Source: Salinibacterium sp. G-O1
GTDB taxonomy: Bacteria > Actinomycetota > Actinomycetes > Actinomycetales > Microbacteriaceae
NCBI RefSeq assembly: GCF_030063305.1
Contig: NZ_JASISV010000002.1
Location: 992,001-1,056,000, forward strand
Direction of reading: 5' to 3'
Length of the DNA stretch: 64,000 bases
The translations under genes were made by a program, and so were the position numbers. The notes under the pieces are model-generated. The model was not told where the DNA came from and searched no databases. It worked only from the letters and a program-made list of their open reading frames with translations. Each line of letters starts with the position of its first letter. Position 1 is the first letter of the stretch. Below are positions 9,875 to 40,025 of this stretch, piece after piece.

Positions 9875-9934
9875 CGGGCTGGGGAAACGGCGTGTTACAC
9901 GCGCGTCACAACAATGCGGTTGACTCAGGAGATC

Positions 9935-10711
9935 ATGGATCTGATCGACGTAGAACACGTGCGGGTGGCACACACCCGCGCCGAGACGGCCCTCGCCCCG
10001 GGCGAACGCGCCATGGGCGGTGGCACCTGGCTCTACTCGGAGCCGCAGCCGGGGTTGACCGGCATCGTCGATCTCGCAGGCATGGGTTGGGAACCGGTCG
10101 TTCGCACCGCGGAGACGATCACGATTGCGGCGACGTGCACCATCGAAACGCTGCGGAGGCTGCCCGAGCCGCTCTTCGAGCAGTGCGCAGACTCGCTTCT
10201 CGCATCGTGGAAGATCTTGTCGATCGCCACCGTCGGAGGCAACATTGCGCTCGCACTGCCCGCCGGACCCATGACCTCGCTTGCCGCCTCCCTCGATGGC
10301 ATCGCCGTTATCTGGACGGTCGACGGCGGCGAGCGCCGCGTGCCCGTCGCCGATTTCGTGACGGGGGTCACCACCACAGCGCTCGGTGCCGGCGAGATCC
10401 TGCGCTCCATCGAGCTGCCCATCGCTTCACTGCACCGCACCGCATTCCGTCGCATCTCCCGCTCCCCGATGGGCCGCACCGGCACTCTCGTGATCGGGCG
10501 AGTGGATGCCTCGGGCGAGACGGTCTTCACCGTGACGGGTGGCACGCCCCGACCACGGCAGCTCAGGTTCGACGGTGCTCCCAGCGCCGCGGATTTGGCA
10601 TCCGGTGTCGATTCGATCGCCGACTGGTACGACGACCCGCACGGCGCCCCGGACTGGCGCCGCGCGATGAGCATGCTCTTCGTCGAGCAGATCCGGCAGG
10701 AGCTGTCATGA
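9935..10711 (+). CDS. Xanthine dehydrogenase-type FAD-binding subunit
   Basis: This 258-aa subunit has the FAD_binding_5/CO dehydrogenase flavoprotein fold. It passes electrons from the FeS clusters of the partner to NAD or oxygen. The FAD loops are visible as MGGGTWLYSEPQPG and IATVGGNIALALPAGPM. It overlaps the following FeS/Mo gene by ATGA, so the two form one complex. I chose the ATG at 9935 because AGGAG precedes it, though the spacing is only 3 nt; an ATG at 9914 without a ribosome site is the alternative. Adjacent purine genes point to xanthine or hypoxanthine as substrate. Confidence 0.88.
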   Translation: MDLIDVEHVRVAHTRAETALAPGERAMGGGTWLYSEPQPGLTGIVDLAGMGWEPVVRTAETITIAATCTIETLRRLPEPLFEQCADSLLASWKILSIATVGGNIALALPAGPMTSLAASLDGIAVIWTVDGGERRVPVADFVTGVTTTALGAGEILRSIELPIASLHRTAFRRISRSPMGRTGTLVIGRVDASGETVFTVTGGTPRPRQLRFDGAPSAADLASGVDSIADWYDDPHGAPDWRRAMSMLFVEQIRQELS

Positions 10712-13332
10712 GGTTCACCATCAATGGCGACGCCGTCAAGGTCGAGGCCAGGCCGGGTCAGGTGCTGCGCACCCTCCTGCGTGAACTCGACCACGTGGAG
10801 GTCAAGAAGGGCTGCGACGCCGGTGACTGCGGCGCCTGCACGGTGCTGCTCGATGGCGGTGCGGTGCACTCGTGCCTCGTCCCGGTCCACCGGCTCGATG
10901 GCGCGCACGTCACGACGGTGTCGGGGCTCGGAACTGTCGAGAACCCCCATCCGATGCAGCGGTCGTTTGTGGAGGCCGGTGGCTTCCAGTGCGGGTTCTG
11001 CACGGCCGGGCTGGTGGTCACGGCATCGACCTTCACCGAGGCCGATCACGACGATCTTCCGCGGCTGTTGAAGGGCAACCTCTGCCGCTGCACCGGCTAT
11101 CGAGCGATCCATGACGCGATCACCGGTGTGTCGAACACGACCACCGCGGCCGCCGGTGACGCCGCCGGTATCTCGATCGCTCCCCCGGCCGCCCTGCGCG
11201 TGGTGACGGGGACCGAGCCGTACACACTTGATCTGAAGACGACCGGGCTTCTGCACCTTGCCGTGCTGGGTAGCCCCTACGCTCACGCGCGGATCGTCTC
11301 GATCGACTCGAGCGCGGCCGAGGCAATCGACGGAGTGCGCGCCGTTCTCACCCACCACGACTCCCCCGGCGTCCACTTCTCGACGGCCAGGCACGAAGAT
11401 CGCAACGATGACCCGGATGATTCGCTCGTGTTCGACACGGTCGTGAGGTTCCGCGGCCAGCGGGTGGCGGCCGTGATCGCGGACACTGTGCGCATCGCGG
11501 AACGTGCGCTCAGCGCCATCCGCGTGGAGTACGAGGTGCTGCCTGCCGTCTTCGATCCGCGGGAGGCCCGCAAGCCGGGCGCGCCGCTCGTGCACGGCGA
11601 CAAGGGGCCCGAGTCGCGCATCGCCGCCCCCGATCGCAACACCGTGGCCGAGTTTCACGGTGAACTCGGCGATGTGGATGCCGCTGTCGCGAGGTCCGCG
11701 GCGAGCGTCAGCGGAACCTGGACCACGCAGCGCGTCAACCATGTCGCCCTCGAGACTCACGCGTCGCGCGGCTGGATCGACGGTGACGGCCGGCTGGTGC
11801 TGCGCACCTCGAGCCAGGTTCCGTTCCTGGTGCGTGACGAGTTGTGCCATATCTTCGGGCTGGAACCCGAAAAGGTGCGGGTGTTCACCGCCAGGGTTGG
11901 CGGCGGTTTCGGCGGCAAGCAGGAGCTGCTCACCGAAGATCTCGTGACCCTCGCCGTCATGAAAACCGGCAGCGCCGTGCAATACGAGTTCACCCGCGAG
12001 GACGAGTTCACGATAGCTCCGACGCGGCATCCGATGCAGGTATCGGTCACTGTTGCCGCATCATCCGACGGCGTGCTTACGGCGCTGGCCGTCGACCAGC
12101 TGATGGATACCGGTGCGTACGGCAACCACGGGGTCGGTGTGATGTTCCACTCCATCCACGAGTCGATACAGGTCTACCGTTGCGCCAACAAGCGAGTGGA
12201 TGCGCAGTCGGTGTATACCAACAACCTTCCCTCTGGCGCGTTCCGCGGGTATGGCCTCGGGCAGGTCATCTATGCGATCGAGTCCGCCCTCGATGAGCTG
12301 GCGCGCAAGCTCGGCATCGATGCCTTCGAACTGCGCCGCCGCAACGTGATCGTGCCCGGCGACAATTTCGTGGTCACTGACGCCGAAGCGCAGAGTGACC
12401 TGTCGATGGCGAGCTATGGGCTCGACCAGTGCCTCGACCTCGCCGAGGCGGCCCTCGACCACGGTCTCACCGGCCCGGAAGGCTGGCCGGTTGGCACGGG
12501 GATGGCCCTCGCGATGATCGCGACCATTGCCCCTCGCGGCCACTATGCGACGGCAACGGTCTCGGTGCTGGATGACGGCGCCGGCGTGGCCACGGATGCG
12601 GTCTTCGAGATCGCGGTCGGCACCGCCGAGTTTGGCAACGGCACCACCACGGTGCACACCCAGCTTGTCGCGACGGCACTCGGCACCACGGTCGACCGCA
12701 TCCGGATTCGCCAGTCAGACACAGACGCCACCAGCTACGACACGGGAGCGTTCGGGTCGGCCGGGGTGGTCGTCGCGGGTAAGGCGCTGCTGGCAGCCGC
12801 CGAGCAGTTGCGCGACCTCATCGCCTCCCACGGACTCACCGCCGGGCTCTCCGCCACCGCCGAGCACGACGGAACGCCCCGCAGCGTGTCGTTCAACGTG
12901 CACGCCTTCAGGGTTGCCGTGAACACCGCGACCGGCGAGGTGCAGATCCTGCAGTCGATCCAGGCCGCCGATGCCGGTGTGGTGCTCAACCCCGAGCAGC
13001 TCAGGGGCCAGATCGAGGGCGGCACGGCCCAGGCCATCGGCACGGCGCTGTTCGAGGAGGTGCTGCTCGACGGCGAGGGCCGTGTCACCACGACCGCTCT
13101 GCGCAATTACCACATCCCCCGGTTTGCCGACCTCCCGGTAACCGAGGTGCTGTTCGCCAACACCCACGACCCGCTGGGGCCGCTCGGCGCCAAGTCGATG
13201 AGTGAGGCTCCGTACAACCCGGTCGCTCCCGCGCTCGCCAACGCGATCAGGGACGCGATGGGGGTACGCAGCTTCGAGCTGCCGATGTCACGCGATCGGC
13301 TGTGGCGGCTGGCATCCACGCAACCCTCCTAG
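10708..13332 (+). CDS. Xanthine dehydrogenase, fused [2Fe-2S] and molybdopterin subunits
   Basis: This 874-aa protein joins two domains that are often separate. Residues 1 to about 160 form the [2Fe-2S] domain, with the plant-type cluster (GCDAGDCGACTVLL) and the second cluster (CGFCTAG, CRCTGY). The rest is the molybdenum hydroxylase domain with GGGFGGKQE, SGAFRGYGLGQ, GTAEFGNGTTTVHTQ and the catalytic-glutamate segment GAKSMSEAPYNPVAPALANA. The enzyme hydroxylates hypoxanthine and xanthine to urate. It overlaps the FAD gene by four bases. XdhC lies downstream on the other strand, and molybdopterin genes are elsewhere in the window. Confidence 0.92.
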   Translation: MRFTINGDAVKVEARPGQVLRTLLRELDHVEVKKGCDAGDCGACTVLLDGGAVHSCLVPVHRLDGAHVTTVSGLGTVENPHPMQRSFVEAGGFQCGFCTAGLVVTASTFTEADHDDLPRLLKGNLCRCTGYRAIHDAITGVSNTTTAAAGDAAGISIAPPAALRVVTGTEPYTLDLKTTGLLHLAVLGSPYAHARIVSIDSSAAEAIDGVRAVLTHHDSPGVHFSTARHEDRNDDPDDSLVFDTVVRFRGQRVAAVIADTVRIAERALSAIRVEYEVLPAVFDPREARKPGAPLVHGDKGPESRIAAPDRNTVAEFHGELGDVDAAVARSAASVSGTWTTQRVNHVALETHASRGWIDGDGRLVLRTSSQVPFLVRDELCHIFGLEPEKVRVFTARVGGGFGGKQELLTEDLVTLAVMKTGSAVQYEFTREDEFTIAPTRHPMQVSVTVAASSDGVLTALAVDQLMDTGAYGNHGVGVMFHSIHESIQVYRCANKRVDAQSVYTNNLPSGAFRGYGLGQVIYAIESALDELARKLGIDAFELRRRNVIVPGDNFVVTDAEAQSDLSMASYGLDQCLDLAEAALDHGLTGPEGWPVGTGMALAMIATIAPRGHYATATVSVLDDGAGVATDAVFEIAVGTAEFGNGTTTVHTQLVATALGTTVDRIRIRQSDTDATSYDTGAFGSAGVVVAGKALLAAAEQLRDLIASHGLTAGLSATAEHDGTPRSVSFNVHAFRVAVNTATGEVQILQSIQAADAGVVLNPEQLRGQIEGGTAQAIGTALFEEVLLDGEGRVTTTALRNYHIPRFADLPVTEVLFANTHDPLGPLGAKSMSEAPYNPVAPALANAIRDAMGVRSFELPMSRDRLWRLASTQPS

Positions 13333-14413: not shown

Positions 14414-15238
14414 TTACGAAATGCCCACCATGGCGGCACTGGCGTCCCACAGCCGGCTCGACAGCCCGGCCTCGTAGGCCTGCGCGTTGGCCTTGGCCAC
14501 CCGACGCTTGCTGAAGTATTCGCCCAGCGGCCAGTGAGTGTCAGGGTGCGACGACGCGAGCCACACCAGGGTGTCAGCGCCGGTCTCGGCCGTGCCGAGG
14601 AACCGGCTCAGCACTGTGCGATACACGAATCGCAGCACACTCGAACTCTCTGCGGCGAAGTTCGTGGCGATCACACCGGGGTGGAATGAGGCCGAGCGAA
14701 TTCCGTGGGCGCGGAACCTGGCATCCAGTTCCTTCGCGAACAGGATGTTGGCCAGCTTCGCATCGCCGTATGCCTTGTTCGGCGAGTACTTCCTGGCGTT
14801 CTGGATGTCGTCGACATCGATCTTGCCGTAGAGAATGTTCGCGATGCTCGCGGTGCCGATGACGGTCGCGCCGCTCTCGACCAGTCGCGTCATGAGCAGG
14901 TTGGTGAGCAGGAACGGCGCCAGGTGGTTGACCTGCATGGTCTTCTCAAACCCGTCGACGGTGAGCTCGCGCGCTGCCATGATCCCGCCGGCGTTGTTCG
15001 CAAGCACATCGATCCGCGGGTAGGTGGCGAGCAGTGTTGCCGCGAGCTCGCGCACGTCATCCAGCCGTGCGAAGTCGGCGAGGTGGTACGGAGCACCCAG
15101 CTCATCAGCTATCGCCTTCGTCTTCTGCGGCGAGCGCCCGACGAGCACGATGGTGTCGCCGTTGCCAGACAGCGCTCTGGCCGCTGCGGCCCCGATGCCA
15201 TCGCTTGCGCCGGTGATGATGATGGTCCTGCCGGTCAT
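14414..15238 (-). CDS. Short-chain dehydrogenase/reductase
   Basis: This 274-aa protein has the Rossmann TGASDGIGAAAARAL motif at its N-terminus, NNAGG, and a catalytic YSPNKAYGDAKLANIL segment with YxxxK (YGDAK). This form, with LANILFAKEL after the active site, is typical of the retinol-dehydrogenase-like SDR group. The substrate is unknown. AGGAG lies 7 nt before the ATG. It runs parallel to XdhC but with a separate ribosome site, so a link to purine metabolism is not shown. Confidence 0.9.
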   Translation of the reverse strand: MTGRTIIITGASDGIGAAAARALSGNGDTIVLVGRSPQKTKAIADELGAPYHLADFARLDDVRELAATLLATYPRIDVLANNAGGIMAARELTVDGFEKTMQVNHLAPFLLTNLLMTRLVESGATVIGTASIANILYGKIDVDDIQNARKYSPNKAYGDAKLANILFAKELDARFRAHGIRSASFHPGVIATNFAAESSSVLRFVYRTVLSRFLGTAETGADTLVWLASSHPDTHWPLGEYFSKRRVAKANAQAYEAGLSSRLWDASAAMVGIS

Positions 15239-15367
15239 GCACGTGCTCCTGTCGTAACCAGTCTTCAGCGTAAGCGGTTGCGCCCGGCCCACCTGACAGC
15301 CGGCAGTGGAGCGTCACATGCCTGATTCGTCATATGCGCGACACATCGCGGTGCTAGAAACGACTCC

Positions 15368-16654
15368 ATGCTCACCATCTCGAACGCAACAGCGATCGTC
15401 ATCGACCAATCCACCGAGTCCGCGGGCGATCTTCACTTCGCTGATGCTCCGGATGACGCCATCGACGCCACCGACTGCGTTGTCACCCCTGGTCTCGTGA
15501 ACGCCCACCATCACCTGATGCAGAGCGCGTTTCGCACGCTCCCCGAAACCCGGGGCGTGCCGATGTCACACTGGCTGCCGACGATGGCTGCGGCCTACGC
15601 CAGGGTCGGGGTGGATGCCGGGCTGGCATCCGCCGCGGCATCCGTTGGCATCGCGGAGGGTCTGCTCAACGGTGTCACGACGGTCGCCGACCATCACCTC
15701 AGCTGGCCGAGCGGAGTCGACACGGTCGCCATCGCGATGGCGGTCGCGGATTCCGCCAGCACCCTGGGCGGTCGACTTGTGTTCGTGCGCGGCGCGGCCC
15801 GCGCCGACCCGCAGGAGGCAGCGGCTTCGGCGGAGGCGATCGTCCAGGCGCTGCTTCCCGGCGCCGCCGGACGGCCCGCCGCGGGCGGAGTGAGCGACGA
15901 CGGCATGCTGCAGCTCGCCGTGGGTCCGGCCGGTGCACACAGTGACCCGAGAGAAACGTTTGAGCTTCTCGGCGAGGTCGCGGCGAAACACGGGCTGCGC
16001 CGGCGCACGCAGGCCAACGAGCAGGTGGATGTCGCGATCGCGCTGGAAAAGTACGGAACGCGACCCATCGACCTGCTGGAGGAGTGGGGCTGGCTCGCCG
16101 ACGATGTCACCCTCGCTCACCTCTGCGACGTGACCGCCGACGAGATCAGGCGGCTCGCTGCATCCGGGATCACGGCGACCCACGCCCCGGGGTGCGATCT
16201 GCCCATGGGGTGGGGAATCGCTCCCGTCGCAGCGCTCCAGGCCGCCGGGGTGGTTGTCGGTCTCGGCACCAGTGGTGGCGGCAGCAACGACGCGGGCCAT
16301 CTGCTCGCCGATGCCAGACTCGCCATGCAGGTCGCCCCGCTGGTGGGACCAGCCGTGCCGGCGCGGACGGTTCTCGGGATGGCGACCGCCGGTTCCTCTG
16401 CTGGGTTGGGCCGCCCCGAGCTGGGACACCTGCGCCAGGGCTCGGCCACCGACCTGTGCGTGTGGGACATATCGGGGGTTGCCGACGCTGGAGTCGCCGA
16501 CCCGGTGGCGGGGCTGCTGTGGGCGAATCCGGGCCGACGCCCGAAACACGTGGTGGTTGCGGGCCGGGTCGTCGTGCGCGACTACCGGCTGGTTGCCGCC
16601 GACGAACTCGACCTCGTTGCGAATCTCAACCGACGACTGGCGCACCCACGTTAG
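15368..16654 (+). CDS. 8-oxoguanine-deaminase/TrzN-like amidohydrolase with altered metal ligands
   Basis: This 428-aa protein is full length for the amidohydrolase superfamily. The HxH pair is present (VNAHHHLMQ), as is the later histidine in LAHLCDV. Two usual ligands are changed. The strand-5 histidine of the common HTHLAE motif is Gln in RRRTQANEQ, and the strand-8 aspartate of GxDGSASND is Ser in GLGTSGGGSND. Related enzymes deaminate 8-oxoguanine, or S-triazines, using one metal. The context (xanthine dehydrogenase, uricase) suggests purine deamination, but activity is doubtful. A TAGAAA box 7 nt before the ATG may be its -10. Confidence 0.8.
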   Translation: MLTISNATAIVIDQSTESAGDLHFADAPDDAIDATDCVVTPGLVNAHHHLMQSAFRTLPETRGVPMSHWLPTMAAAYARVGVDAGLASAAASVGIAEGLLNGVTTVADHHLSWPSGVDTVAIAMAVADSASTLGGRLVFVRGAARADPQEAAASAEAIVQALLPGAAGRPAAGGVSDDGMLQLAVGPAGAHSDPRETFELLGEVAAKHGLRRRTQANEQVDVAIALEKYGTRPIDLLEEWGWLADDVTLAHLCDVTADEIRRLAASGITATHAPGCDLPMGWGIAPVAALQAAGVVVGLGTSGGGSNDAGHLLADARLAMQVAPLVGPAVPARTVLGMATAGSSAGLGRPELGHLRQGSATDLCVWDISGVADAGVADPVAGLLWANPGRRPKHVVVAGRVVVRDYRLVAADELDLVANLNRRLAHPR

Positions 16655-17604
16655 AGCTCGAGCGTGAGTTTGGGTCCGGCCGAACGTGACACGCAGACGT
16701 ACATCACGTCGTTGGCGGCCTGCTCATCGGGGGTGAGTATCGAGTCGCGGTGGTCGATCTCGCCATCCATGACGCGCACCTCACAGGTGCCACAGGTGCC
16801 TTCGCGGCAGCTCGACAGCACGAGCACTCCGGCCTCCTCAACGACGTCCAGGATGCTGCGCTCGGGTGGCACCGTCAACTCGAGACCTGAGAAGGCGAGT
16901 TCGACCTCGAACGGCTCGGCGAGCATGGGCTCGCCCATGTCTTTGGGCTCGAACCGCTCGATCTTCAGCTGCCGACCGGTCGCCGCGATCTCCACCGCCT
17001 CGATGAGGCGCGACGGACCGCAACAATACGTGGTCGTAAACGGCGGGAGATCGGTGAACAGCCCGGAAAGGTCAAGACGGTCACCCTCGTCGGCGGCGTG
17101 GATCGTCACGTTGTTCGGGAATTTCTCAAGCAGCTCGTCGACCAGCGCCATCGTCGACCGCGACCGTCCCGCATATTCGAGCCTGAAGTCGACTCCCACA
17201 GCGGCCGCTGACGCAACCATTGCCGAGATCGGGGTGATTCCGATGCCGCCGGCGATGAACAGGTAGCGGGTGCCCCGCTCCGGCACGAACTCAAAGTGGT
17301 TGCGCGGTCCGGCCACCCGAACCGTTGCTCCGACCACCAGTGAATCATGCACCCAGAGCGAGCCTCCGCGTCCGTCAGGTTCGCGCAACACCCCGATACG
17401 CCAGGTGTTGCTGTCCGATATTCCGCACAGGGAATATTGGCGAGAATCTCCATCCGGAAGCAGCACATCGATGTGCGCGCCGGGCTGCCATCGTGGCAAG
17501 GACAGCCCGGAAACCGATTCCAGATCGATCAATTCGATCTCGGCCGCGCCCCGAGTGCGTGCGACTACGACCATGTCGAAAGCTGAATCATCAAGTGCGT
17601 TCAT
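16651..17604 (-). CDS. Phthalate-dioxygenase-reductase-type oxidoreductase (FMN/NAD and 2Fe-2S)
   Basis: This 317-aa reductase has three domains in order: flavin binding (RQYSLCGISDSNTWRIGVLR), NAD binding (YLFIAGGIGITPISAMVASA), and a C-terminal plant-type ferredoxin (SCREGTCGTCEVRVMDGEIDHRD, with a later VCVSRS cysteine). Such proteins carry electrons from NADH to Rieske oxygenases, demethylases or cytochrome P450s. No oxygenase gene is in the window, so the partner is unknown. Its stop overlaps that of the convergent amidohydrolase. Its ATG overlaps the stop of a cupin-like remnant, so it was once second in an operon. Confidence 0.9.
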   Translation of the reverse strand: MNALDDSAFDMVVVARTRGAAEIELIDLESVSGLSLPRWQPGAHIDVLLPDGDSRQYSLCGISDSNTWRIGVLREPDGRGGSLWVHDSLVVGATVRVAGPRNHFEFVPERGTRYLFIAGGIGITPISAMVASAAAVGVDFRLEYAGRSRSTMALVDELLEKFPNNVTIHAADEGDRLDLSGLFTDLPPFTTTYCCGPSRLIEAVEIAATGRQLKIERFEPKDMGEPMLAEPFEVELAFSGLELTVPPERSILDVVEEAGVLVLSSCREGTCGTCEVRVMDGEIDHRDSILTPDEQAANDVMYVCVSRSAGPKLTLEL

Positions 17605-17753
17605 GATTGGCGCGGGTTCTCCTGGACGACGAACAGCCGGTCGCCCGGGTAATCGGGCGCACACCACCGATGTGGGGTGTCGCCACCGTAATAGAGCGAA
17701 TCGCCTTGGCGCAAAACGGAGGATCGCGATGGAACGACTGCAAGCCCGTCGAG
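17601..17753 (-). pseudogene. Remnant of a cupin-type transcriptional regulator (C-terminal part only)
   Basis: In the minus-strand frame that ends at 17601, about 50 codons read as a cupin C-terminus: QGDSLYYGGDTPHRW, then GDRLFVVQENPRQS and a stop. This is like the sensor half of XRE-cupin regulators, with its metal-type GD...PH pattern. The frame is closed upstream by TAA at 17754-17756, and no start codon with a ribosome site is seen. The stop overlaps the reductase ATG as ATGA, the usual sign of translational coupling. The rest of the gap up to 17897 holds no gene I can support. Confidence 0.5.
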
Positions 17754-17897
17754 TTAACACATGGAAATGGCCACGTCACACGATTGAAATGTGGCGACCG
17801 TAGATTCGCCTCTGTTGAGCAGATCAACATTCACGTGCAGCCAACCCGACGGTGTGGAGGGTGCACATTCGCCCGCATTCCCCGGAGACGACACCCC

Positions 17898-19151
17898 GTG
17901 ACCACACTGCCTCGCCAGCTGTCCGTGCTGAGGAATGCCACGCTCCCCGATGGTTGCCTCGTTGATGTCGAGCTCATCGAAGATGTGGTTCGCACCGTTC
18001 GGCCAGCATCGGACTCCCCGTTGGTCGACGACTACGGCACCCTCGACCTCACCGGGTTCATGCTTCTTCCCGCACCGGCGGAACCACATGCTCACCTCGA
18101 CAAGGCGCTCTCGTGGGATCTCATCAATCCTCCGGCCGGCGATCTTGGTCGCGCGATCGAATCATGGCGCGCCTACTCCACCGTGATGACGGTGCAGAGC
18201 ATCGCCGACCGGGCACGCGAGCAGGCGCTCACGATGTTGCGCAATGGAACCACCGCGGTGCGTTGCCACGTCGACATGCTCGTCGGGCCTGAGCCGCTGC
18301 GAGGCGTTGAGGCCCTGGTGCAGGTTCGGCGCGAACTGGCTGGCCTCATGGACATCGAGCTCGTCGCGCTTGCAGGCTCAGACGCTTCGGATGCCACGGT
18401 CGAAGCCGCCCTCGACCTCGGTGTTGACCTCGTCGGCGGTGCCCCGCATCTCGCGCCATCGCCGGGCGAAGACCTCCGGCGTCTGCTCGCGATCGCCGAG
18501 CGTCGCGGAGTCGGCGTCGACCTGCACACCGACGAGGGGCTCACCGGAGACCCGACGATCATCGAGTTCGCGAGGATCGTGCGCAACTGGACGGTTCCCG
18601 TTAGCGCAGGGCACTGTGTACGGCTCGGCACCCTTGAGGCTGCACAACTCGATGAGGTCATCACCGAGATCCTGGCCAGTGACATCGGCATCATCAGCCT
18701 TCCCATCACGAACCTCTACCTTCAGGGCTGGGACCACCCGGTCTCGACGCCCCGCGGAATCACCGCCCTGCGCAGCCTGCTCGACGCGGGTGTGCGGGTC
18801 GGGGCGGGAGCAGACAACGTACGCGACCCGTTCAACCCGGTCGGCCGAAGCGACGCGCTTGAGACTGCGTCCCTTCTGGTCACTGCGGCGCACCTGTCGC
18901 TCGATGAGGCATACGCCGCCGTCTCGACCGGTGCACGGTCTGTCATGTCTTTGCCCAGGGCCGGCGTGAGTGTCGGCTCCCGTGCAGAGCTCATCGCCGT
19001 GCGCGGATCGACGATGTCTGAGGTCATCGCGACGGCCTCCCCCGACCGGTTCGTCATTCACGCCGGTCGTCTCGTGTCGCAATCACGGGTGCATTACGAC
19101 GTGGCACCGGCCAACATCCCCGCGCTCGAACTACTCACAACATCGAATTGA
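17898..19151 (+). CDS. Cytosine-deaminase-like (CodA) amidohydrolase
   Basis: This 417-aa cytoplasmic protein has the CodA metal-site set: HxH in EPHAHLDKALSW, DLHTDEG, the histidine in SAGHCVRL, and the aspartate in GAGADNVRDPFNP. Family members deaminate cytosine or isoguanine, or hydrolyse formamide groups of pyrimidines. It opens an eight-gene operon ending at 25481 and is followed 13 bp later by an ABC importer, so it probably acts on the imported compound. I chose the GTG at 17898 with GGAG 11 nt upstream; an in-frame extension upstream lacks family similarity. Confidence 0.85.
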   Translation: MTTLPRQLSVLRNATLPDGCLVDVELIEDVVRTVRPASDSPLVDDYGTLDLTGFMLLPAPAEPHAHLDKALSWDLINPPAGDLGRAIESWRAYSTVMTVQSIADRAREQALTMLRNGTTAVRCHVDMLVGPEPLRGVEALVQVRRELAGLMDIELVALAGSDASDATVEAALDLGVDLVGGAPHLAPSPGEDLRRLLAIAERRGVGVDLHTDEGLTGDPTIIEFARIVRNWTVPVSAGHCVRLGTLEAAQLDEVITEILASDIGIISLPITNLYLQGWDHPVSTPRGITALRSLLDAGVRVGAGADNVRDPFNPVGRSDALETASLLVTAAHLSLDEAYAAVSTGARSVMSLPRAGVSVGSRAELIAVRGSTMSEVIATASPDRFVIHAGRLVSQSRVHYDVAPANIPALELLTTSN

Positions 19152-19164
19152 GGTGACAACGCAC

Positions 19165-19947
19165 ATGTCTTCAGCAACCATGATTGCCCGCGACACGAGG
19201 TCAACGTCCGAATCGACAACGCTTCTCGACTTTCGCGACGTGGCAATGACATTCCCGGATGGCACGGTGGCGCTTTCTGGCGTCGACCTCACCGTCAAGC
19301 GCGGAGAGTTCGTCACGGTCGTCGGCCCCTCAGGTTGTGGCAAGTCAACCCTGCTGCGCATCGCTTCGGGCCTGGAGAAGTCCTCTCACGGCACCGTCGA
19401 CCTCGCGACAGACCGCATCGGCTACGTGTTCCAAGATGCAACGCTGCTGCCATGGCGTTCGGTGCAGGCCAACGTCGAACTGCTCGCCGAACTGCATGGC
19501 ACGCCCAAGGCCGCTCGCGCAGCCAAGGCGAAAGAAGCCATCGACCTCGTCGGCCTGACCGGTTTCGAGAAACACCTACCCAAAGCGCTCTCGGGCGGGA
19601 TGAAGATGCGCACCTCGCTCGCTCGCTCACTCACCCTTGACCCCGAAATCTTCCTCTTCGACGAACCGTTCGGCGCGCTCGACGAGATCACCCGCGAGCG
19701 GCTGAACGACGAGTTGCTGAGGCTGTTCGCCGAGAAGCAGTTCGCCGGGCTGTTCATCACCCACTCGGTGTCTGAGGCGGTCTACCTCTCAACCAAGGTG
19801 ATCGTCATGTCGGGTCGCCCCGGAAAGATCGTCGGCAGCTTCGATGTGCCCTTCGACCTGCCGCGCGACCCCGAAATTCGTTTCACCCCCGAATTCGCCG
19901 CACTCGTCGGCGAGGTTTCACACGCACTCAGGGAGGCGCACTCGTGA
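19165..19947 (+). CDS. ABC importer ATPase (SsuB/TauB/ThiZ type)
   Basis: This 260-aa nucleotide-binding subunit has Walker A VGPSGCGKST, Q-loop FQDATLLPW, signature LSGGMKMRTSLAR, Walker B IFLFDEPFGALD and the switch histidine in FITHSVSEA. The methionine in the signature and the LLPWRS motif are typical of importers for sulfonates, taurine and pyrimidine precursors. GAGGTGAC lies before the ATG. It overlaps the permease gene by GTGA. Confidence 0.93.
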   Translation: MSSATMIARDTRSTSESTTLLDFRDVAMTFPDGTVALSGVDLTVKRGEFVTVVGPSGCGKSTLLRIASGLEKSSHGTVDLATDRIGYVFQDATLLPWRSVQANVELLAELHGTPKAARAAKAKEAIDLVGLTGFEKHLPKALSGGMKMRTSLARSLTLDPEIFLFDEPFGALDEITRERLNDELLRLFAEKQFAGLFITHSVSEAVYLSTKVIVMSGRPGKIVGSFDVPFDLPRDPEIRFTPEFAALVGEVSHALREAHS

Positions 19948-20783
19948 CCGACGACGTGACAGGCACAACGTCCATTGCTGTGCGCCGAACGCGCAGCACC
20001 AACGGAGGGGCGAAGTTCGGCGTGTGGGCTCCCCCCATCCTCGTTGCCATTGTCGTGATCGCTGTCTGGTATCTGATCAGCTCAATGCTGGGTAAGAAGA
20101 ACTTCCTGCTGCCGCCGCCACACGAGGTGGTAGCCAAGGGTTTCCTCAACCCGGAGACGGCGTCCGATATCGTCACCGCCCTCGGTCGTTCCGCCCTCGT
20201 TGCGCTGGTGGGCCTGGCCATCGCCATCGTGATCGGCGTCGTGTGGGCCATCGCCATGTCGCAGGCGAAGTGGATCGAGCGCTCGCTCTTCCCCTACGCG
20301 GTCATCCTGCAGACCATCCCGATCCTCGCCCTCGTGCCGCTCATCGGCTTCTGGTTCGGTTTCGAGTTCTTCTCCCGAGTGGTCGTCTGCGTCATGATCG
20401 CGCTCTTCCCGATGGTGTCGAACACTCTCTTTGGCCTGCAGTCGGTGGCGCTGTCGCAGCGTGAACTCTTCAAACTCCAGCACGCCTCCCGCTGGACAAT
20501 CCTCACCAAGCTCGACCTCCCGACCGCACTTCCCGCCATCTTCGCCGGAATGCGCATCTCGGCGGGCCTTGCCGTGGTGGGCGCCATCGTTGGTGACTTC
20601 TTCTTCCGCCGCGGCACTCCCGGTATTGGGGCGCTGCTGAACAACTACACCTCGAGGCTGCAGGGCGCCGAATTGCTCGCGGCAATCATCGCCGCATCCC
20701 TTTTCGGGGTCGCGATCTTCGCGGTCTTCGGCCTGCTCGGCAAGCTCGCCGTCGGCCGCTGGTACGACTTCGGCCAGAAGTAG
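19944..20783 (+). CDS. ABC importer permease (SsuC/ThiX type)
   Basis: This 279-aa inner-membrane subunit has about six hydrophobic helices. The EAA-type cytoplasmic loop that contacts the ATPase is around FKLQHASRWTILTKLDLPTALP. Resembling nitrate/taurine/thiamine-precursor permeases, it has the family pattern ILQTIPILALVPLIGFWFGF. It overlaps the ATPase gene at its GTG start and is followed 67 bp later by the lipoprotein. Confidence 0.92.
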   Translation: MTDDVTGTTSIAVRRTRSTNGGAKFGVWAPPILVAIVVIAVWYLISSMLGKKNFLLPPPHEVVAKGFLNPETASDIVTALGRSALVALVGLAIAIVIGVVWAIAMSQAKWIERSLFPYAVILQTIPILALVPLIGFWFGFEFFSRVVVCVMIALFPMVSNTLFGLQSVALSQRELFKLQHASRWTILTKLDLPTALPAIFAGMRISAGLAVVGAIVGDFFFRRGTPGIGALLNNYTSRLQGAELLAAIIAASLFGVAIFAVFGLLGKLAVGRWYDFGQK

Positions 20784-20850
20784 CCGACTCACCCTGTCTA
20801 ACCCGTTCACCCTGCACCCAACACAGCAGCAACAACTGAAGGAGACGAAC

Positions 20851-22032
20851 ATGCACATCACCCGTTCCCGCACCACATTGGCCGCGGCCATGACGGTAGC
20901 CACCGTCGTGACGCTCAGCGCCTGCAGCGCCGGCACCCAGAGCGGCGATGCCCCCGTCACCGATCTCGCCATTGGCTCGGTCAACCTCGCTGCGGCAGGA
21001 TGCCCGGCCAACATCGTGATCCAGACAGACTGGAACCCCGAGGCTGAACACGCTCACCTCTATGAGTTGCTTGGCGCCGACTACACCGTTAACTCCGACC
21101 AGAAGTCGGTCTCCGGCCCCCTGATGGCCACGGGAGAGTACACCGGAGTGAACGTGGAGGTGCGGTCGGGCGGACCCGCCATCGGATACGCCACGGTCAC
21201 CAGCCAGATGTACTCGGATGACGACATCACCCTGGGATACGTCAGCACCGATGAGGCAATCCAGTTGTCGGCAGACTTCCCGACCGTGGGAGTGTTCGCC
21301 CCGCTCGACAAGACCCCGCAGATGCTCATGTGGGATCCGTCCACCTACCCGGACGTGACCGACATCGCGAGCCTCGGCACCGCACTTGCGGGCGACGGCG
21401 GAGTGGTTCGCTACTTCGGCGGCGCTGCATACATGGAATACCTGATGAGCGATGGCCAGCTCGACGCGAGCGTCGTCGACGGAAGCTACGACGGCAGCCC
21501 CGCGAACTTCGTGGCAGCAGGCGGTAAGGATGCACAGCAGGGCTTCGGTTCCGCCGAGCCGTACGTCTACCTGAACGATGTCGCCGACTGGTCCAAGCCA
21601 GTCGCCTACGACTACATCTCCGCCGCTGGCTGGGACATCTACTCCTCCGCTGTCTCGGTCCGTGCCGCAGACTTCGAGGAGATGACGCCGTGCCTCACCG
21701 CACTGGTGCCAGTGCTGCAGCAGGCCGAGGTCGACTACTTCACAGACCCCACCGCGACCAACGCACTCGTTCTCGACCTCGTCGACCAGTTCGACACCGG
21801 ATGGGTCTACTCGCAGGGCGTTGCTGATTACTCGGTCACCACCATGATCGACGATGGGTTGGTCGGAAACGGCCCGAACGACACGCTCGGAGACTTCGAC
21901 GAGACCCGCATGTCGGACTTTCTCGAACTCGCGATCCCGGTGTTTGAGGGGATCGGCAATGTTCCGGCTGCTGGTCTGGTCGCCACAGATATCTACACCA
22001 ACGAGTTCATCGACCCGGCGATCGGCCTCTAG
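20851..22032 (+). CDS. Substrate-binding lipoprotein of the ABC importer (NMT1/THI5-like)
   Basis: This 393-aa exported protein has a signal peptide with lipobox LSAC (Cys25), so it is anchored outside the membrane. The segment VIQTDWNPEAEHAHLYELLG resembles the pyrimidine-binding opening of THI5/ThiY-type proteins (xDWxPxxxHxGLY). The rest has few aromatic hallmarks I recognise. GGAG precedes the ATG. Together with its permease and ATPase it would import a small heterocycle. Thiamine-pyrimidine, pyrimidines or related lactams are candidates, none proven. Confidence 0.85.
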   Translation: MHITRSRTTLAAAMTVATVVTLSACSAGTQSGDAPVTDLAIGSVNLAAAGCPANIVIQTDWNPEAEHAHLYELLGADYTVNSDQKSVSGPLMATGEYTGVNVEVRSGGPAIGYATVTSQMYSDDDITLGYVSTDEAIQLSADFPTVGVFAPLDKTPQMLMWDPSTYPDVTDIASLGTALAGDGGVVRYFGGAAYMEYLMSDGQLDASVVDGSYDGSPANFVAAGGKDAQQGFGSAEPYVYLNDVADWSKPVAYDYISAAGWDIYSSAVSVRAADFEEMTPCLTALVPVLQQAEVDYFTDPTATNALVLDLVDQFDTGWVYSQGVADYSVTTMIDDGLVGNGPNDTLGDFDETRMSDFLELAIPVFEGIGNVPAAGLVATDIYTNEFIDPAIGL

Positions 22033-22058
22033 GCCCCGAGCCTCGATCTGAGAACCGA

Positions 22059-22820
22059 ATGATGACCCCGCCAGTGACCCCCACACAGCGCCTCAGCGGC
22101 AAACGTGTCATCGTCACTGGCGGGGCTCGCGGTATCGGTGGCGAAATCGCCAGCCGCTTCGCCGGCGAAGGCGCCACCGTCGCCATCCTCGACAGGCTGG
22201 TGGACGACGGCACCACACGTGCCGCCTCAATCGGCGGAACTTTTCACGGGATCGACCTGCTCGACCCCGTCGCCACAGCGGCCGTGACACAGTCGGCCAT
22301 CACCGCGCTGGGCGGCGTCGATGTGCTCGTCAACAGCGCAGGCATCCTGCGCTTCACACCGCTGCTCGACCTGACCGTGCAGGACTGGAACGAGACCTTC
22401 TCGATCAACACCAGGGCGATGCTGACCACCATGCAGGTGTGCGTCCGCTCGATGATCGCCGCCGGTCACGGTGGCAAGATCGTCAACCTGGCGAGCATGG
22501 CCGCCAAGAAGGGTGGCGCCGGTGAGGGCGCGTATCCGGCATCGAAAGCAGCAGTCGTCGGGCTGACCCGGCAGGCTGCACTCGAATGGGGCTGCCACGG
22601 GATCACGGCAAACTCGCTGTGCCCCGGTTACATCCTGACCGACATGGGCGCGGCGACCCGCACCCAGGACGACATCGACACCTGGTCAACATATTCACCA
22701 CTGGGTCGACTCGGGCAGGCACAGGATGTCGCAGCCGTCGCACTTTTTCTCGCGTCATCCGACGCCGACTATCTCACCGGCCAGGCGGTCAACGTCACCG
22801 GCGGGATGGTCATGCACTGA
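22059..22820 (+). CDS. Short-chain dehydrogenase/reductase of the catabolic operon
   Basis: This 253-aa classical SDR has the NAD(P) motif TGGARGIGGEIASRF, NSAGIL in the core, the catalytic serine in NLASMAAKKGG and the YPASK active-site pair. The C-terminal LFLASSDADYLTGQAVNVTGG is the usual SDR ending. It most likely oxidises or reduces a hydroxyl/carbonyl on the imported substrate. It lies 26 bp after the binding-protein gene and 38 bp before the FAD oxidase. Confidence 0.9.
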   Translation: MMTPPVTPTQRLSGKRVIVTGGARGIGGEIASRFAGEGATVAILDRLVDDGTTRAASIGGTFHGIDLLDPVATAAVTQSAITALGGVDVLVNSAGILRFTPLLDLTVQDWNETFSINTRAMLTTMQVCVRSMIAAGHGGKIVNLASMAAKKGGAGEGAYPASKAAVVGLTRQAALEWGCHGITANSLCPGYILTDMGAATRTQDDIDTWSTYSPLGRLGQAQDVAAVALFLASSDADYLTGQAVNVTGGMVMH

Positions 22821-22858
22821 ATCTCCCCCTCGTACCAAAAGGAACACAGGACCCACCG

Positions 22859-24172
22859 ATGACCTCCCACGCCGAACTTCACGTCGAACTTCTCGATCTT
22901 CTGGGCGAGAAGGGTGTGAGCGTCGAACTCGCCGCCCGCGAGCGCGCCTCCATCGACGGCTCGCGCATGTCGCCGGTGATCAGCGAATTGCTGCCGCTCG
23001 GACTCGCCGACCTCGTTGCGTACCCGGCGAGCGCCGACGAGATCGCGGCAACGATCGCCGCCTCCGTGCGCCACGGTGTGCCCATCACCCCTCGCGGAAA
23101 GGGCACAGGAAACTACGGCCAGGCGATCCCAATGTCTGGCGGGCTCGTGCTCGACATGAGCCGCGCTCGCGCCATCGTCGAGGTCGGCGATGGTTTCATC
23201 ACCGCGGAGGCCGGCGCAACCATGGTGTCGCTCGAGCTCGCAGCGAACAAGGCCGGCCAGCAAATTCTGATGTACCCGTCGACCGCACAATCGTCGCTCG
23301 GCGGCTTCATCTCGGGCGGTTCAGGCGGCACGGGGTCGATAAAGCACGGGATGCTGCACCACGGCTTCGTGCGTGCTCTCGACGTCGTGCACGCCATGCC
23401 GGACGCCGAGCTGCTACACGTCGACGGCCAAGCCGCCGAGCCGTACATCCACAACTACGGAACCGCCGGGATCATCGCGCGCGCCACCGTCGCACTTGAG
23501 CCGCTGCAGGAATGGCAGGGATTCTTCGCCAGCTTCGACACTTTCGAGCAGGCACTGTCGGTAATCCGTCCGTTCGCCGACCTCGAGCCGACACCGCGGC
23601 TGGTGTCTGCAGACATGGCCACTCTGGCCAACGCGCTTCCGGCCGATCCCGGGATCCCCACTGACCGGGCGTCGCTGCGGGCAATCCTGGATGTGGCATC
23701 CATCGATGCCGCCCGAAAACTCGTCGAAGATGCGGGGGGACGCGTCGACGACGTTCGCGAAGGCGCGCAGACGTCGATGAAGATCAGCATGATGAGCTAC
23801 AACCACCCGATCGAATGGCTTCAGAAGTCCTACCCCAACACTTACTTCCACGTGGAGGTCGCTGGCGACGCCCTGATCGACCGCATCGACGAAGTGCACG
23901 CCGTGTACCCGGGAGGAATGCTGCACATCGAAGCGCAGAAGGGTCGCCCGATCGGCATGCTCGCCGGTGAATACCGCTCGGCCGATGAGGTCGTGGCGGG
24001 GTTCGAACGGCTCACCGCTCTCGGCGTCGGATTTCACAATCCGCACCAGTGGAACGTCGACTACGAGCCTGAGCGCACAGCGCAGACTGCGGCATTCACG
24101 GACCCGGATGGTCTGCTCAATCCCGGAAAGCTTCAGGCGAAGCCACTCGTCTCGACCGGGAGCCAGGCATGA
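22859..24172 (+). CDS. FAD-linked oxidase (VAO/GlcD-type)
   Basis: This 437-aa flavoprotein has the FAD_binding_4 domain: ITPRGKGTGNYGQAIPMSGG (pyrophosphate loop), then GDGFITAEAGATM and a long GGFISGGSGGTGSIKHGML segment. The family oxidises alcohols, hydroxy acids or amines. The C-terminal cap (FHNPHQWNV, ending DPDGLLNPGKLQ) is like glycolate-oxidase relatives. AGGA lies 7 nt before the ATG. It overlaps the amidase gene by ATGA, so their products probably act in sequence. Confidence 0.88.
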   Translation: MTSHAELHVELLDLLGEKGVSVELAARERASIDGSRMSPVISELLPLGLADLVAYPASADEIAATIAASVRHGVPITPRGKGTGNYGQAIPMSGGLVLDMSRARAIVEVGDGFITAEAGATMVSLELAANKAGQQILMYPSTAQSSLGGFISGGSGGTGSIKHGMLHHGFVRALDVVHAMPDAELLHVDGQAAEPYIHNYGTAGIIARATVALEPLQEWQGFFASFDTFEQALSVIRPFADLEPTPRLVSADMATLANALPADPGIPTDRASLRAILDVASIDAARKLVEDAGGRVDDVREGAQTSMKISMMSYNHPIEWLQKSYPNTYFHVEVAGDALIDRIDEVHAVYPGGMLHIEAQKGRPIGMLAGEYRSADEVVAGFERLTALGVGFHNPHQWNVDYEPERTAQTAAFTDPDGLLNPGKLQAKPLVSTGSQA

Positions 24173-24939
24173 GCGCGCGCGAACTCGCGGAGCTCTCGGG
24201 CCCGGCTGCGGCATCCATTCTCACGGCAGATTCGATCATCGTGCTGCCCACCGGCGCCATCGAGCATCATGGGCCGCACCTGCCGCTCGCCACCGACCTG
24301 ATCATGGCCGACCTCCTATCGTCGAAGGTGGTGGATGCGGCAGTCGCCTCCGGCCTCGACGTCTGGAGGCTCGCGCCCCTCGCCTACACGAAGTCGAACG
24401 AACACCACTGGGCCGTCGGCACCGTGTGGATTAGCTGGGACACCATGATGCGAACCCTGCTTGACATCGGCGAGTCGATCGCGGCCACCCCGGCAAAGAC
24501 CCTTGTGTTCTACAACGGGCACGGCGGAAACACGGCCCTGCTGATGGTGGCGCTGCGCGAACTGCACATCAAGTACGGGCTGCGCACCTTCCTCATGGGC
24601 GCCGCGGTGGCCGCGGGCGACGGCGTCAACGGACCAGACGAGCGCGGCTTCGGCATCCACGGCGGTCACGCGGAGACGTCTATCGTGATGGCGCTCCGGC
24701 CGGAACTGGTCGACCTTTCGCTCGCGGAACGCTGGGTTCCTGACCAACTCGCCGACTTCAAGCACATCAAATTCAATGGGGGCGCGGTCGCTTTCGGCTG
24801 GGCCTCGGACGACTTCGGGCCATCGGGAGTCATCGGAGACGCCACGGGCGCCAACGCGGCCTGGGGCGCCGAGCTGGTGGAGCGCTCCATCGACAAGGGA
24901 GTCGCCGAGCTTTCCGAGATCGCCAGGTTCAACAAGTGA
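24169..24939 (+). CDS. Creatininase-family amidohydrolase
   Basis: This 256-aa protein has the creatininase metal-site motifs: LPTGAIEHHGPHLPLATD, YNGHGGNTALL, and IHGGHAETSIVM. Family members open cyclic amides (creatinine, hydantoin-like rings) or cut amides in cofactor pathways (MftE, FAPy deformylases), using two metals. Here it is coupled to a flavin oxidase and an SDR, which suggests ring opening or amide cleavage of the oxidised import substrate. Creatinine itself is possible but the other genes do not match known creatinine pathways. Confidence 0.9.
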   Translation: MSARELAELSGPAAASILTADSIIVLPTGAIEHHGPHLPLATDLIMADLLSSKVVDAAVASGLDVWRLAPLAYTKSNEHHWAVGTVWISWDTMMRTLLDIGESIAATPAKTLVFYNGHGGNTALLMVALRELHIKYGLRTFLMGAAVAAGDGVNGPDERGFGIHGGHAETSIVMALRPELVDLSLAERWVPDQLADFKHIKFNGGAVAFGWASDDFGPSGVIGDATGANAAWGAELVERSIDKGVAELSEIARFNK

Positions 24940-25481
24940 CATTTCCGCTACTCGACGAGTGGCTGCCGGCGAACGAAAGTCCGGAGCGCCCGCAGATGAT
25001 CCTGTCTACGGTTTCTGCGGCAGGATCACCGGATGCGCGCACCGTACTGCTGAGCGAATTCGACGATCAGGGTCTCTACTTCCACACCGACTCGCGATCG
25101 CGGAAGGTTGCGGACATTTCGGCGAATCCCGCCGTGGCGCTCACCTTCCTCTGGCCCGGATTCACGCGGCAGCTTGTCGTGCAGGGCGTGGCCGAGGTTG
25201 CCCCGCCGCTTGAGCTCGCCGCGGCGTTTGCGGCCCGCTCCCCCTACCTGAAACAGCTCGCGTGGCTGAACTCGCGCGAGTTCGCCCAACTTCCCCTGGA
25301 CGAGCGACGCGCGCAATGGGCATCCTTCGAGCTGCCCGACACGCCGCCGACCACCTGGATCGGGTTCGTCGTGAAGCCCTCGCGCCTCACGTTCTGGAGC
25401 AGCGATCCCGAGACCGCCTCCCGTCGCGAGGAGTTCACGCTCGTCGACGGGAGCTGGGTGTCGAGTTACCTCGCCGGCTGA
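24936..25481 (+). CDS. Pyridoxamine 5'-phosphate oxidase-like flavoprotein
   Basis: This 181-aa protein has the split-barrel FMN fold of the PNPOx family: MILSTVSAAGSPDARTVLL, LYFHTDSRSRKVADI, and the C-terminal WIGFVVKPSRLTFWSS. Length and the C-terminal segment resemble true PdxH-type oxidases, although the last substrate-binding residues are not the usual RLHDR. It starts at a GTG overlapping the creatininase stop, so it closes the operon. It may reduce or oxidise an intermediate or make PLP. Confidence 0.8.
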   Translation: MTFPLLDEWLPANESPERPQMILSTVSAAGSPDARTVLLSEFDDQGLYFHTDSRSRKVADISANPAVALTFLWPGFTRQLVVQGVAEVAPPLELAAAFAARSPYLKQLAWLNSREFAQLPLDERRAQWASFELPDTPPTTWIGFVVKPSRLTFWSSDPETASRREEFTLVDGSWVSSYLAG

Positions 25482-28302: not shown

Positions 28303-29319
28303 TCACGCCAACTCTCGCGACGTCCGAGCCAGCGCCTCCGCGAACCACGCAGAGCGGCCAGGGGTCGCGCCACCGGACAGGTTGATGCCAGCCACCCCAT
28401 CGATCTGAAGCAGCTCGCGACTGAGCTCGACGGCAGCGGCGATGCCCTCGCTGAAGGGGTCTGGCGCGCCGAGGATCCGGTCGAGGTAGCCGTCGGGCAG
28501 CACCATGGTCGTGAAGGTTTTCAGCAGCTCGGCGCTTCCCCTGTCAACGATTAAGGGCACGCACGGGATGTACGCCATCTCGACCCCCATTACCGTCGAC
28601 CTGGCGATGAAGTCGGCCACGGGCGCAGCCCCGCCGCTGTGATTGACGAAGCACACCTCCGCACCTGCCCGCGTCTTCTCCAGCAGCCGCTCCGGCCGGC
28701 GCTCGGTGGGCGGGGTCGCCGGCGCTTCGGCCACCGAGACCAGATGCCCGAACGACCGGGCGAGGGATGCCGCCTGGGTCGAGTCGAGGTCGAACACCGG
28801 TGCGGCATCCGGTCGCTGCCCGGTTGCGGTGTGATCGCCCGTCACACAATGCACTCCTGCCACTCCCGCATGCTGGAGCGCGGCAAGCTCGCCTTCCATC
28901 GCGACCCGGTTGCGGTCACGGCAGTTGAATCCGGACCAGACCTGCAGCCCGGCGGCCATCACGAGGGCGGCGCGATACGCCGGCGGGAACTGCACCCTTG
29001 CGTTGCCAGCATCCCCCGCGAGCACCACATCCACCGAATCGCGCATGATCCCTGCGCACTCGGCGATGGATTCAGCATCGATCGCCTGCGCGGGAAAGTC
29101 TGCCACCACGATGGGCCTGGAGCGCATGAGTTCCCTCATCACGACCGCACCGGCCGAGGGCCGGGCCGATGATTGTTGCGCCAACCCTGGCCACCGCACA
29201 GTCGGGAGGTCGAGAAACACACAGGGGTGCGGGGATACCTCGCAACTGCCGTCGAATTCCACCCCGCCACAGGGGCCGAATTGCATGTGTTTCGGGCATT
29301 CGATCGTCGGCTCGGGCAT
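28303..29319 (-). CDS. Methylenetetrahydrofolate-reductase-related protein with N-terminal Cys motif
   Basis: This 338-aa protein starts with ECPKHMQFGPCGGVEFDGSC, the cysteine pattern of the MTHFR-C (zinc ribbon-like) domain, which usually lies at the C-terminus or on a partner protein. The rest has the MTHFR TIM-barrel pattern (VADFPAQAID, LQVWSGFNCRDRNRVA, GVHCVTGDH). It lacks an obvious second domain. It probably handles methylene- or methyl-tetrahydrofolate, next to homocysteine methyltransferase. The barrel is short for a standard MetF and the FAD-site fit is uncertain. Confidence 0.75.
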   Translation of the reverse strand: MPEPTIECPKHMQFGPCGGVEFDGSCEVSPHPCVFLDLPTVRWPGLAQQSSARPSAGAVVMRELMRSRPIVVADFPAQAIDAESIAECAGIMRDSVDVVLAGDAGNARVQFPPAYRAALVMAAGLQVWSGFNCRDRNRVAMEGELAALQHAGVAGVHCVTGDHTATGQRPDAAPVFDLDSTQAASLARSFGHLVSVAEAPATPPTERRPERLLEKTRAGAEVCFVNHSGGAAPVADFIARSTVMGVEMAYIPCVPLIVDRGSAELLKTFTTMVLPDGYLDRILGAPDPFSEGIAAAVELSRELLQIDGVAGINLSGGATPGRSAWFAEALARTSRELA

Positions 29320-38956: not shown

Positions 38957-40025
38957 AATCGGCCTTCCGGATGCGGGCGTGCACTCCCTTGACGAGGTCG
39001 ACCACCTGGGAGATGTTGAAATCGGTGGCGGCGCTGAGGTAGGCGTAGGCGTGGGCAGCATCCATGCCGTAGCGGGCGCGGAGAAGGGCGATCGCCGCCC
39101 GCACGCAGTCCTGCATGGCAATGTCCAAATCTTCGTTCATGCCGGTGGGAATCAAGAATTCCTGTGTCTCGGCGAGCGGTCCGACGAGCTCACCGAACTC
39201 CGTCACGGCATCCTCGTGGGCGACCACCTCGAACCGAATGGTGGCGCGCAACGATGCCTCCATCGCCGTCAGCGCGACCTCGCCGTCGCCCTGCGCGAAG
39301 TGCGGGTCACCGACGTAGGCGAGCGCGCCATCCACCTGCACCGGCAGATAGAGGGAGGCACCCACCGTCAGCATGTTGATGTCGATGTTGCCGCCGTGGG
39401 CGCCGGGCGGCACCGAGTGCGGGCGCTCGTTCCCGGCGACGGCCACACCCATGATCCCGAGAAACGGATGCAGTTCAAACCGCACATCGTGCGCGCCGCC
39501 GAACACCCTCGGCATCGTGCCATGGTCGCCGTCGACAGCCGCGAACACGCTGACCAGGTCGCCGGACTCGGGATATTCGCCGGGCAGGGCGCCGCGGCCA
39601 TGGCGGTTCGAGATGATGCCGTACGGCACCCGCGGAAGAGTCTCGAGCACGGTCATCCTGAGCAGATCGCCCTGGCGCGCGCCGCTGACATGGATCGGGC
39701 CCGAGATGACGTGGGGGCCGCCGCCCGCGCGATCGTAGCCGGAGGCGGCGAGCCTGGCCGCATCATCCAGAACGTCGGCAACGCCGAAGCCGCCGAAGAA
39801 CGCGCGCGGATCGCGCCCCTGGTCCTCCATGATGCCTTCGTGGCTGATCGTGTCGATCGTGACCTCGGTTCCCGAGTCGATCGTGAGCACGGCCGAATCG
39901 GCGGCGCAGGGCAGCCTCCCCCACAGCACATCTGCCGGGTCGGCAGGCAGGTAGGTGTCAGCGCGAATCGGCCCGAGGCCGGATTGCAGGGCATCCATGG
40001 TCACAACAGCCCCCATCGGTTCCAT
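38949..40025 (-). CDS. Acetamidase/formamidase family protein
   Basis: This 358-aa protein belongs to the FmdA/AmdA family of metal-dependent hydrolases that release ammonia from formamide or acetamide. Family landmarks are GRLPCAADSAVLTIDSGTEV, HVISGPIHVSGARQGDLL, FGGAHDVRFELHPFLGIMGV, GGNIDINML and YLSAATDFNISQVVDLVKG. It overlaps the AtzH-amidase gene, so both amidases form one operon. A perfect operator-like palindrome begins directly before its ATG. A start at the second methionine (MGAVVTM) is possible. Confidence 0.92.
   Translation of the reverse strand: MEPMGAVVTMDALQSGLGPIRADTYLPADPADVLWGRLPCAADSAVLTIDSGTEVTIDTISHEGIMEDQGRDPRAFFGGFGVADVLDDAARLAASGYDRAGGGPHVISGPIHVSGARQGDLLRMTVLETLPRVPYGIISNRHGRGALPGEYPESGDLVSVFAAVDGDHGTMPRVFGGAHDVRFELHPFLGIMGVAVAGNERPHSVPPGAHGGNIDINMLTVGASLYLPVQVDGALAYVGDPHFAQGDGEVALTAMEASLRATIRFEVVAHEDAVTEFGELVGPLAETQEFLIPTGMNEDLDIAMQDCVRAAIALLRARYGMDAAHAYAYLSAATDFNISQVVDLVKGVHARIRKADFA

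Follow-up and report, generated by a model that had tools for sequence, protein, structure and literature searches.

We analysed a stretch of 64,000 nucleotides from Salinibacterium sp. G-O1 (contig NZ_JASISV010000002.1, positions 992,001 to 1,056,000), referred to here as the window, and read with moderate confidence a run of eight genes on its + strand (17898-25481, genes A to H) as an actinobacterial variant of an operon for folate/pteridine uptake and ring catabolism. We favour this reading because the enzyme encoded by F is related to the structure 6v42, because a core of the operon is common to two phyla, because the amidohydrolase encoded by A lacks the signature of CodA and because a gene resembling a folate enzyme lies nearby. 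The presence, strand and families of the eight genes, which the original prediction had named from the letters of the DNA, were confirmed with Pfam and NCBIfam and, for D, by fold:

A: 17898..19151, + strand, CodA-like amidohydrolase, core (Amidohydro_3, 2.9e-20)
B: 19153..19947, + strand, ABC transporter ATPase, core (ABC_tran, 8.5e-28)
C: 19944..20783, + strand, ABC transporter permease, core (BPD_transp_1, 1.7e-21)
D: 20851..22032, + strand, substrate-binding lipoprotein with a ThiY/Thi5-like fold, core (placed by AlphaFold model)
E: 22059..22820, + strand, short-chain dehydrogenase/reductase (SDR) oxidoreductase, accessory (adh_short_C2, 1.6e-54)
F: 22859..24172, + strand, FAD_binding_4 flavoprotein, relative of 6v42, core (phmmer 3.1e-40, Foldseek 1.4e-34, tree)
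G: 24169..24939, + strand, creatininase-family hydrolase, core (Creatininase, 5.2e-57)
H: 24936..25481, + strand, PNPOx-like flavoprotein, accessory (PNPOx_N, 3.7e-18)

Comparison of F with solved structures by phmmer gave a single strong relative, 6v42/6v43, with the next match at only 7.3e-13. The AlphaFold model of F (pLDDT 91.3) also had 6v42 as its top Foldseek match in the PDB (TM 0.84/0.79, 27% identity), followed by a match at 2.7e-25. The PDB title of 6v42 is 'Crystal structure of the flavin oxygenase with cofactor bound involved in folate catabolism'. We built a maximum-likelihood tree of 50 rows, comprising 27 actinobacterial F (including that of the window), 11 proteobacterial F, 6v42 and 11 ordinary FAD_binding_4 proteins. 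6v42 and the 11 F from proteobacterial operons formed one clade (support 100/100), the actinobacterial F group had a support of 87/89, and a branch with 100/100 support separated 6v42 and the operon F rows from the 11 ordinary proteins, in a tree which is unrooted and carries a long-branch warning. The motif GTGNYGQ was present in 27/27 actinobacterial F, the window copy included, in 6v42 and in 10/11 proteobacterial F, and in 0/11 of the other FAD_binding_4 proteins. Cytokinin oxidases were rejected as an identity for F, as they match it far more weakly than 6v42 does.

The gene set is conserved beyond chance. Searching named genomes with F returned at least 576 relatives, and we analysed the best 80 loci, so that all locus counts given here are conditional on F; a gene was counted as present where tblastn gave a match with ≥ 38% identity. 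The core genes were found as follows: F in 80 loci, D in 75, C in 72, B in 71, A in 70 and G in 67. All six were present together in 60/80 loci, on a single strand in 55 and in the order A-B-C-D-F-G on one strand in 52. The SDR (E, 23 loci) and the PNPOx-like gene (H, 47 loci) are accessories and do not belong to the core. Other linked genes were a reductase (Y, 51 loci), an XRE-cupin regulator (51), an amidohydrolase-fold protein (X, 47), a gene resembling methylenetetrahydrofolate reductase (MTHFR; 26), XdhC (24) and uricase (17). Counting any tblastn match inflates the numbers, to 26 for E, 50 for H, 52 for Y and 53 for the regulator. As X and Y recur directly upstream of A, the functional unit exceeds 17898-25481. 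The core was incomplete in 20/80 loci, some of which are cut by contig ends; in eight loci (L087, L091, L099, L129, L135, L137, L140 and L142) F lay well within the stretch and G alone was missing, and little of the core remains in L118 and L121. The closest F among the matches listed was that of Salinibacterium xinjiangense (90% identical). As a single marker F is weak, with some match in 284/296 class-level genomes and a match at E < 1e-88 in only 22, its own genome included.

With D as an independent query, a match was found in 34/297 order-level genomes, again including its own. The core was present in 15/19 of the regions fetched from this search; L054, L056 and L060 were without it and L057 covers just 5 kb, with B, C and D. 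D alone is not diagnostic, because paralogues without the core exist in L054 and L056. These paralogues (L054:9108-10283 and L056:8695-9729) lie in genomes which also carry the operon, and their ligands may differ.

Counterparts of the operon were found in Proteobacteria. Using 6v42 as a query, 185 plasmid records matched, 109 of them from Rhizobium; the top relatives are about 67% identical and belong to Rhizobium operons which also hold homologues of A, B, C and G. We viewed 12 proteobacterial regions; counts out of 11 leave out Pantoea At-9b, which was reached via D and in which F and G were not seen in the stretch viewed. F, an ABC importer of three genes and a gene of the creatininase family were present in 11/11, and a CodA-type amidohydrolase and RidA in 10/11 each, with Agrobacterium (L150) lacking both. 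The reductase was of the NAD(P)H-dependent FMN type in 6/11, and PDR/VanB reductases were found in two regions (Klebsiella and Pantoea). Matches to the window's A, B, C, F and G were obtained by tblastn in 4/4 regions (L062, L064, L065 and L066). The Rhizobium-type operon resembles the window operon in the fold and motif of F and in its NMT1-type ABC importer, CodA-like amidohydrolase, FAD enzyme and creatininase-family gene, whereas RidA and the FMN-type reductase are features of the Rhizobium-type set, X, Y, E, H and the MTHFR-like gene are features of the window set, and D is very divergent. Neither RidA nor an FMN-type reductase was among the window genes at 14414-25481; H and Y may be their stand-ins. 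The cluster in Nitratireductor additionally contains a hydantoinase/oxoprolinase and a ureidoglycolate lyase. It was also observed that a plasmid of a Klebsiella pneumoniae blood isolate carries, at L149:5659-13344, a related cluster with a PDR/VanB reductase, an amidohydrolase, RidA, a creatininase-family gene, an ABC importer and the FAD enzyme.

The system had been put forward as undescribed. Judged by sequence relationship it is not wholly so, as F groups with 6v42 and the Rhizobium operons are homologous, but the operon as a whole may still be undescribed: in the open-access literature we found no description of it and no link between these genes and folate or pterins.

Features of the amidohydrolase A speak against cytosine as the substrate. 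Its best NCBIfam model is NF005759 (184 bits, under the cut-off), the same model to which the Rhizobium operon A belongs above the cut-off (698 bits). We aligned E. coli CodA with 16 operon A (the window's, 5 other actinobacterial and 10 proteobacterial). The HxH motif, catalytic Glu and metal Asp of CodA are kept in 16/16, whereas Gln157 is absent, Asp315 is replaced by Asn and Trp320 by Phe in 16/16, and window A is only 24% identical to CodA. We take these three to be CodA-specific active-site residues. Their alignment thus argues for one substrate common to the operon A of both phyla and other than cytosine. For residue counts over the 80 loci, rows with stops, frame problems or coverage below 85% were dropped (A from 70 to 66 loci, G from 67 to 66 and X from 47 to 40) and the window copy was then added. 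The metal and catalytic residues of A are kept in ≥ 97% of the 67 aligned rows.

The same holds for E32, H34, D43, H118 and E169 of G (≥ 97% of 67 rows), which presumably form the creatininase-type metal set, and G scores under the equivalog cut-offs of both creatininase (66.9 vs 235 bits) and MftE (109.7 vs 172 bits). No Pfam or NCBIfam match was found for D. The AlphaFold model of D (pLDDT 91.5) had as its top fold match ThiY (3ix1; E 4.7e-13, 16% identity), then a thiamin-binding protein and Thi5, and lower down PqqT, which binds pyrroloquinoline quinone; taurine and sulfonate binders matched too. Going by the model, the closest folds of D, and PqqT, are those of holders of small aromatic heterocycles. 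The ThiXYZ-type importer likewise groups a binding protein, an ATPase and a permease, but the neighbours here are catabolic and not those of salvage. The predicted import and breakdown of an N-heterocycle is supported by this model and by the residues kept in A and G. The further proposal that the SDR and the FAD oxidase convert an alcohol to an acid in two steps was rejected, as E is too rare for a core step and F is nearest to the 6v42 flavin oxygenase.

The three linked genes outside the run were:

X: 15368..16654, + strand, TrzN-related amidohydrolase-fold protein with an altered metal site (TrzN, 3.2e-61; 47/80 loci)
Y: 16651..17604, - strand, VanB/PDR-like reductase divergent from A, putative start (Fer2, 6.2e-14; 51/80 loci)
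MTHFR-like gene: 28303..29232, - strand, 2.8 kb downstream of H, putative start (26/80 loci)

The profile of 20 MTHFR-like neighbours matched mainly MTHFR structures (12/13 PDB matches, best 7.4e-7, mostly partial); the window copy alone had no Pfam match, and an MTHFR-type NCBIfam model matched it under the cut-off. This gene adjoins A on the same strand in four Klenkia loci (L087, L091, L099 and L135) and overlaps A in L044. The protein may act on reduced folates.

In X, Gln215 and Ser302 stand at the positions of the metal-site His and Asp, and both replacements, together with the motif GTSGGG(S/L)ND, are kept in 41/41 rows. Three plasmid relatives from the 8-oxoguanine-deaminase group, unlike X, retain both the His and the Asp. 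The catalytic Asp is given as > 99% conserved in two related clusters in the accessible part of one publication (PMC13054789), and the Ser302 column of X would correspond to that Asp column. As both metal-site residues are replaced and all 41 rows keep the Gln, an ordinary deaminase is an unlikely identity for X, whose metal site departs from that of an 8-oxoguanine/guanine-type deaminase. From the alignment, the amidohydrolase site of X has been remodelled and is strongly constrained. The best solved relative of X, the triazine hydrolase TrzN, also has a changed residue (Thr) at the usual Asp position, but TrzN keeps the metal-site His which X has replaced by Gln. Reductase models of NCBIfam match Y under their cut-offs. 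Y was considered as the partner of a Rieske oxygenase and is probably not serving one in its own genome, where two Rieske matches were found at E ≤ 0.001, one reading in translation as QcrA beside a cytochrome and the other lying in a 119-aa frame.

We infer both the substrate class and every reaction of the route which these genes would form, and the order of its steps (import, then deamination, flavin oxidation and finally opening of the ring) is taken from the chemistry of the families. D, B and C would import an aromatic pteridine, for example pterin released from folate, and A would strip the amino group from the ring, giving a lumazine-type product from pterin. F would then oxidise the pteridine ring with O2, with Y and/or H giving reducing power or re-reducing a quinonoid intermediate. 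G would hydrolyse the activated lactam and so open the ring, and small amide and ureide products would pass to amidases and to the neighbouring ureide pathway. The recurrence of a reductase of changing type (H, Y, the FMN type or a flavin reductase) suggests a step which needs reduced flavin or re-reduction of a quinonoid. It is also conceivable, though doubtful, that the operon, together with X, Y and the MTHFR-like gene, is dedicated to scavenging folates of plants, namely 5-methyltetrahydrofolate and the pyrazino-triazine MeFox which arises from it by oxidation. The MTHFR-like protein would then handle the methylated folate, and X, given its altered metal site, would be a natural relative of the progenitor enzyme of the herbicide hydrolase TrzN; no bacterial work on MeFox was found in open-access literature listings.

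Several observations weigh against a pteridine substrate. F is only 27% identical to 6v42, hence its substrate may have shifted, and the folate label of 6v42 is the depositor's title; no publication behind 6v42/6v43 was found in the open-access literature. By BLAST, window A is equally near to Rhizobium A and to CodA (127 bits each). A tblastn match of D was obtained in L062 and L064 only, and none in the Rhizobium and Alloyangia operons. The MTHFR-like gene of the window lies on the opposite strand and its match to MTHFR is weak. In 17/80 loci the operon borders on uricase and other purine genes, and in the window itself the operon is surrounded by a purine-ureide superlocus (9914-36635) with a xanthine-dehydrogenase-type enzyme (9914-13332), XdhC, allantoinase, uricase, HIU hydrolase, OHCU decarboxylase, allantoate amidohydrolase and a class-V aminotransferase. 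This last point leads to the main rival, possible but clearly less probable, in which the operon acts on a heterocycle derived from a purine by methylation, oxidation or some other modification, and its breakdown joins the adjacent uricase-ureide route. Such a substrate would also agree with the uricase gene which immediately follows H, on the strand of H, in L053 (5114-6007, about 60 bp apart) and L055 (5422-6351, overlapping), and with X being nearest to triazine/8-oxoguanine-type hydrolases. However, uricase was not seen in the stretch covered for 63/80 loci, those of Streptomyces included, F is related to 6v42, and X is without the usual metal-site His and Asp. The purine neighbourhood may instead mean that a molybdenum hydroxylase and ureide-processing genes are shared.

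A pyrimidine, such as the thiamin pyrimidine hydroxymethylpyrimidine (HMP) or a close analogue, could be imported and degraded, which is near the original prediction and which we consider improbable. The closest folds of D (ThiY, the thiamin-binding protein and Thi5) fit this proposal, as do some relatives with an isochorismatase whose closest models are those of biuret hydrolase and RutB (below cut-offs, L130) or a luciferase-like monooxygenase (L143), but the equivalents of CodA Gln157, Asp315 and Trp320 are missing from all 16 aligned operon A, F again points to 6v42, and no thiamin gene was recognised among the neighbours identified, in a search which was not systematic. Degradation of a five-membered ring like that of creatinine or hydantoin, which A would deaminate and G would open, is very improbable: G belongs to the creatininase family and keeps the metal-type residues, and the Nitratireductor cluster has its hydantoinase/oxoprolinase and ureidoglycolate lyase, yet G scores higher against MftE (110 bits) than against creatininase (67 bits), both under cut-off, creatinase and sarcosine oxidase were not among the neighbours identified, and the relation of F to 6v42 counts against this substrate too.

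The genes are tightly spaced. Instead of the four short overlaps claimed earlier there are three, each of 4 bp (B/C, F/G and G/H); B starts at 19153 (GTG) or 19165 (ATG), with its stop side at 19947, and the earliest start leaves 1 bp between A and B, the remaining gaps being 67, 26 and 38 bp. Promoter and terminator scans gave matches at or under shuffled expectation. A 15-nt imperfect inverted repeat (87%) occupies 17674-17688 and 17883-17897, its second arm abutting the start of A, and may be due to chance. Further downstream in the window (37436-40025), a gene for an amidase with an AtzH-like domain overlaps a formamidase gene. Both families flank the core in Streptomyces canus (L130), together with a flavin reductase, a metallo-beta-lactamase-fold gene and the isochorismatase mentioned above, and Trebonia (L143) adds a Rieske oxygenase to its luciferase-like monooxygenase.

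One of the closest described systems is the degradation of folic acid by Variovorax sp. F1, in which carboxypeptidase G and pterin deaminase act and which ends at deaminopteroic acid (PMC9513972). It shares with our proposal the deamination of the pterin ring; the accessible part of that account names these two enzymes and mentions no gene cluster, creatininase or ABC transporter. Folates turn over in every ecosystem, and the bacterial genes which break the pteridine ring are barely mapped, the Variovorax account being the one open-access study found. Many Actinomycetota carry the conserved core, which includes a dedicated importer, and Proteobacteria have its counterpart, so that the question of how the pteridine ring is broken can be tested directly. 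The core would also offer a hypothesis on the substrate of many genes at present annotated as 'cytosine deaminase', as 'creatininase' or as 'FAD-binding oxidoreductase'.

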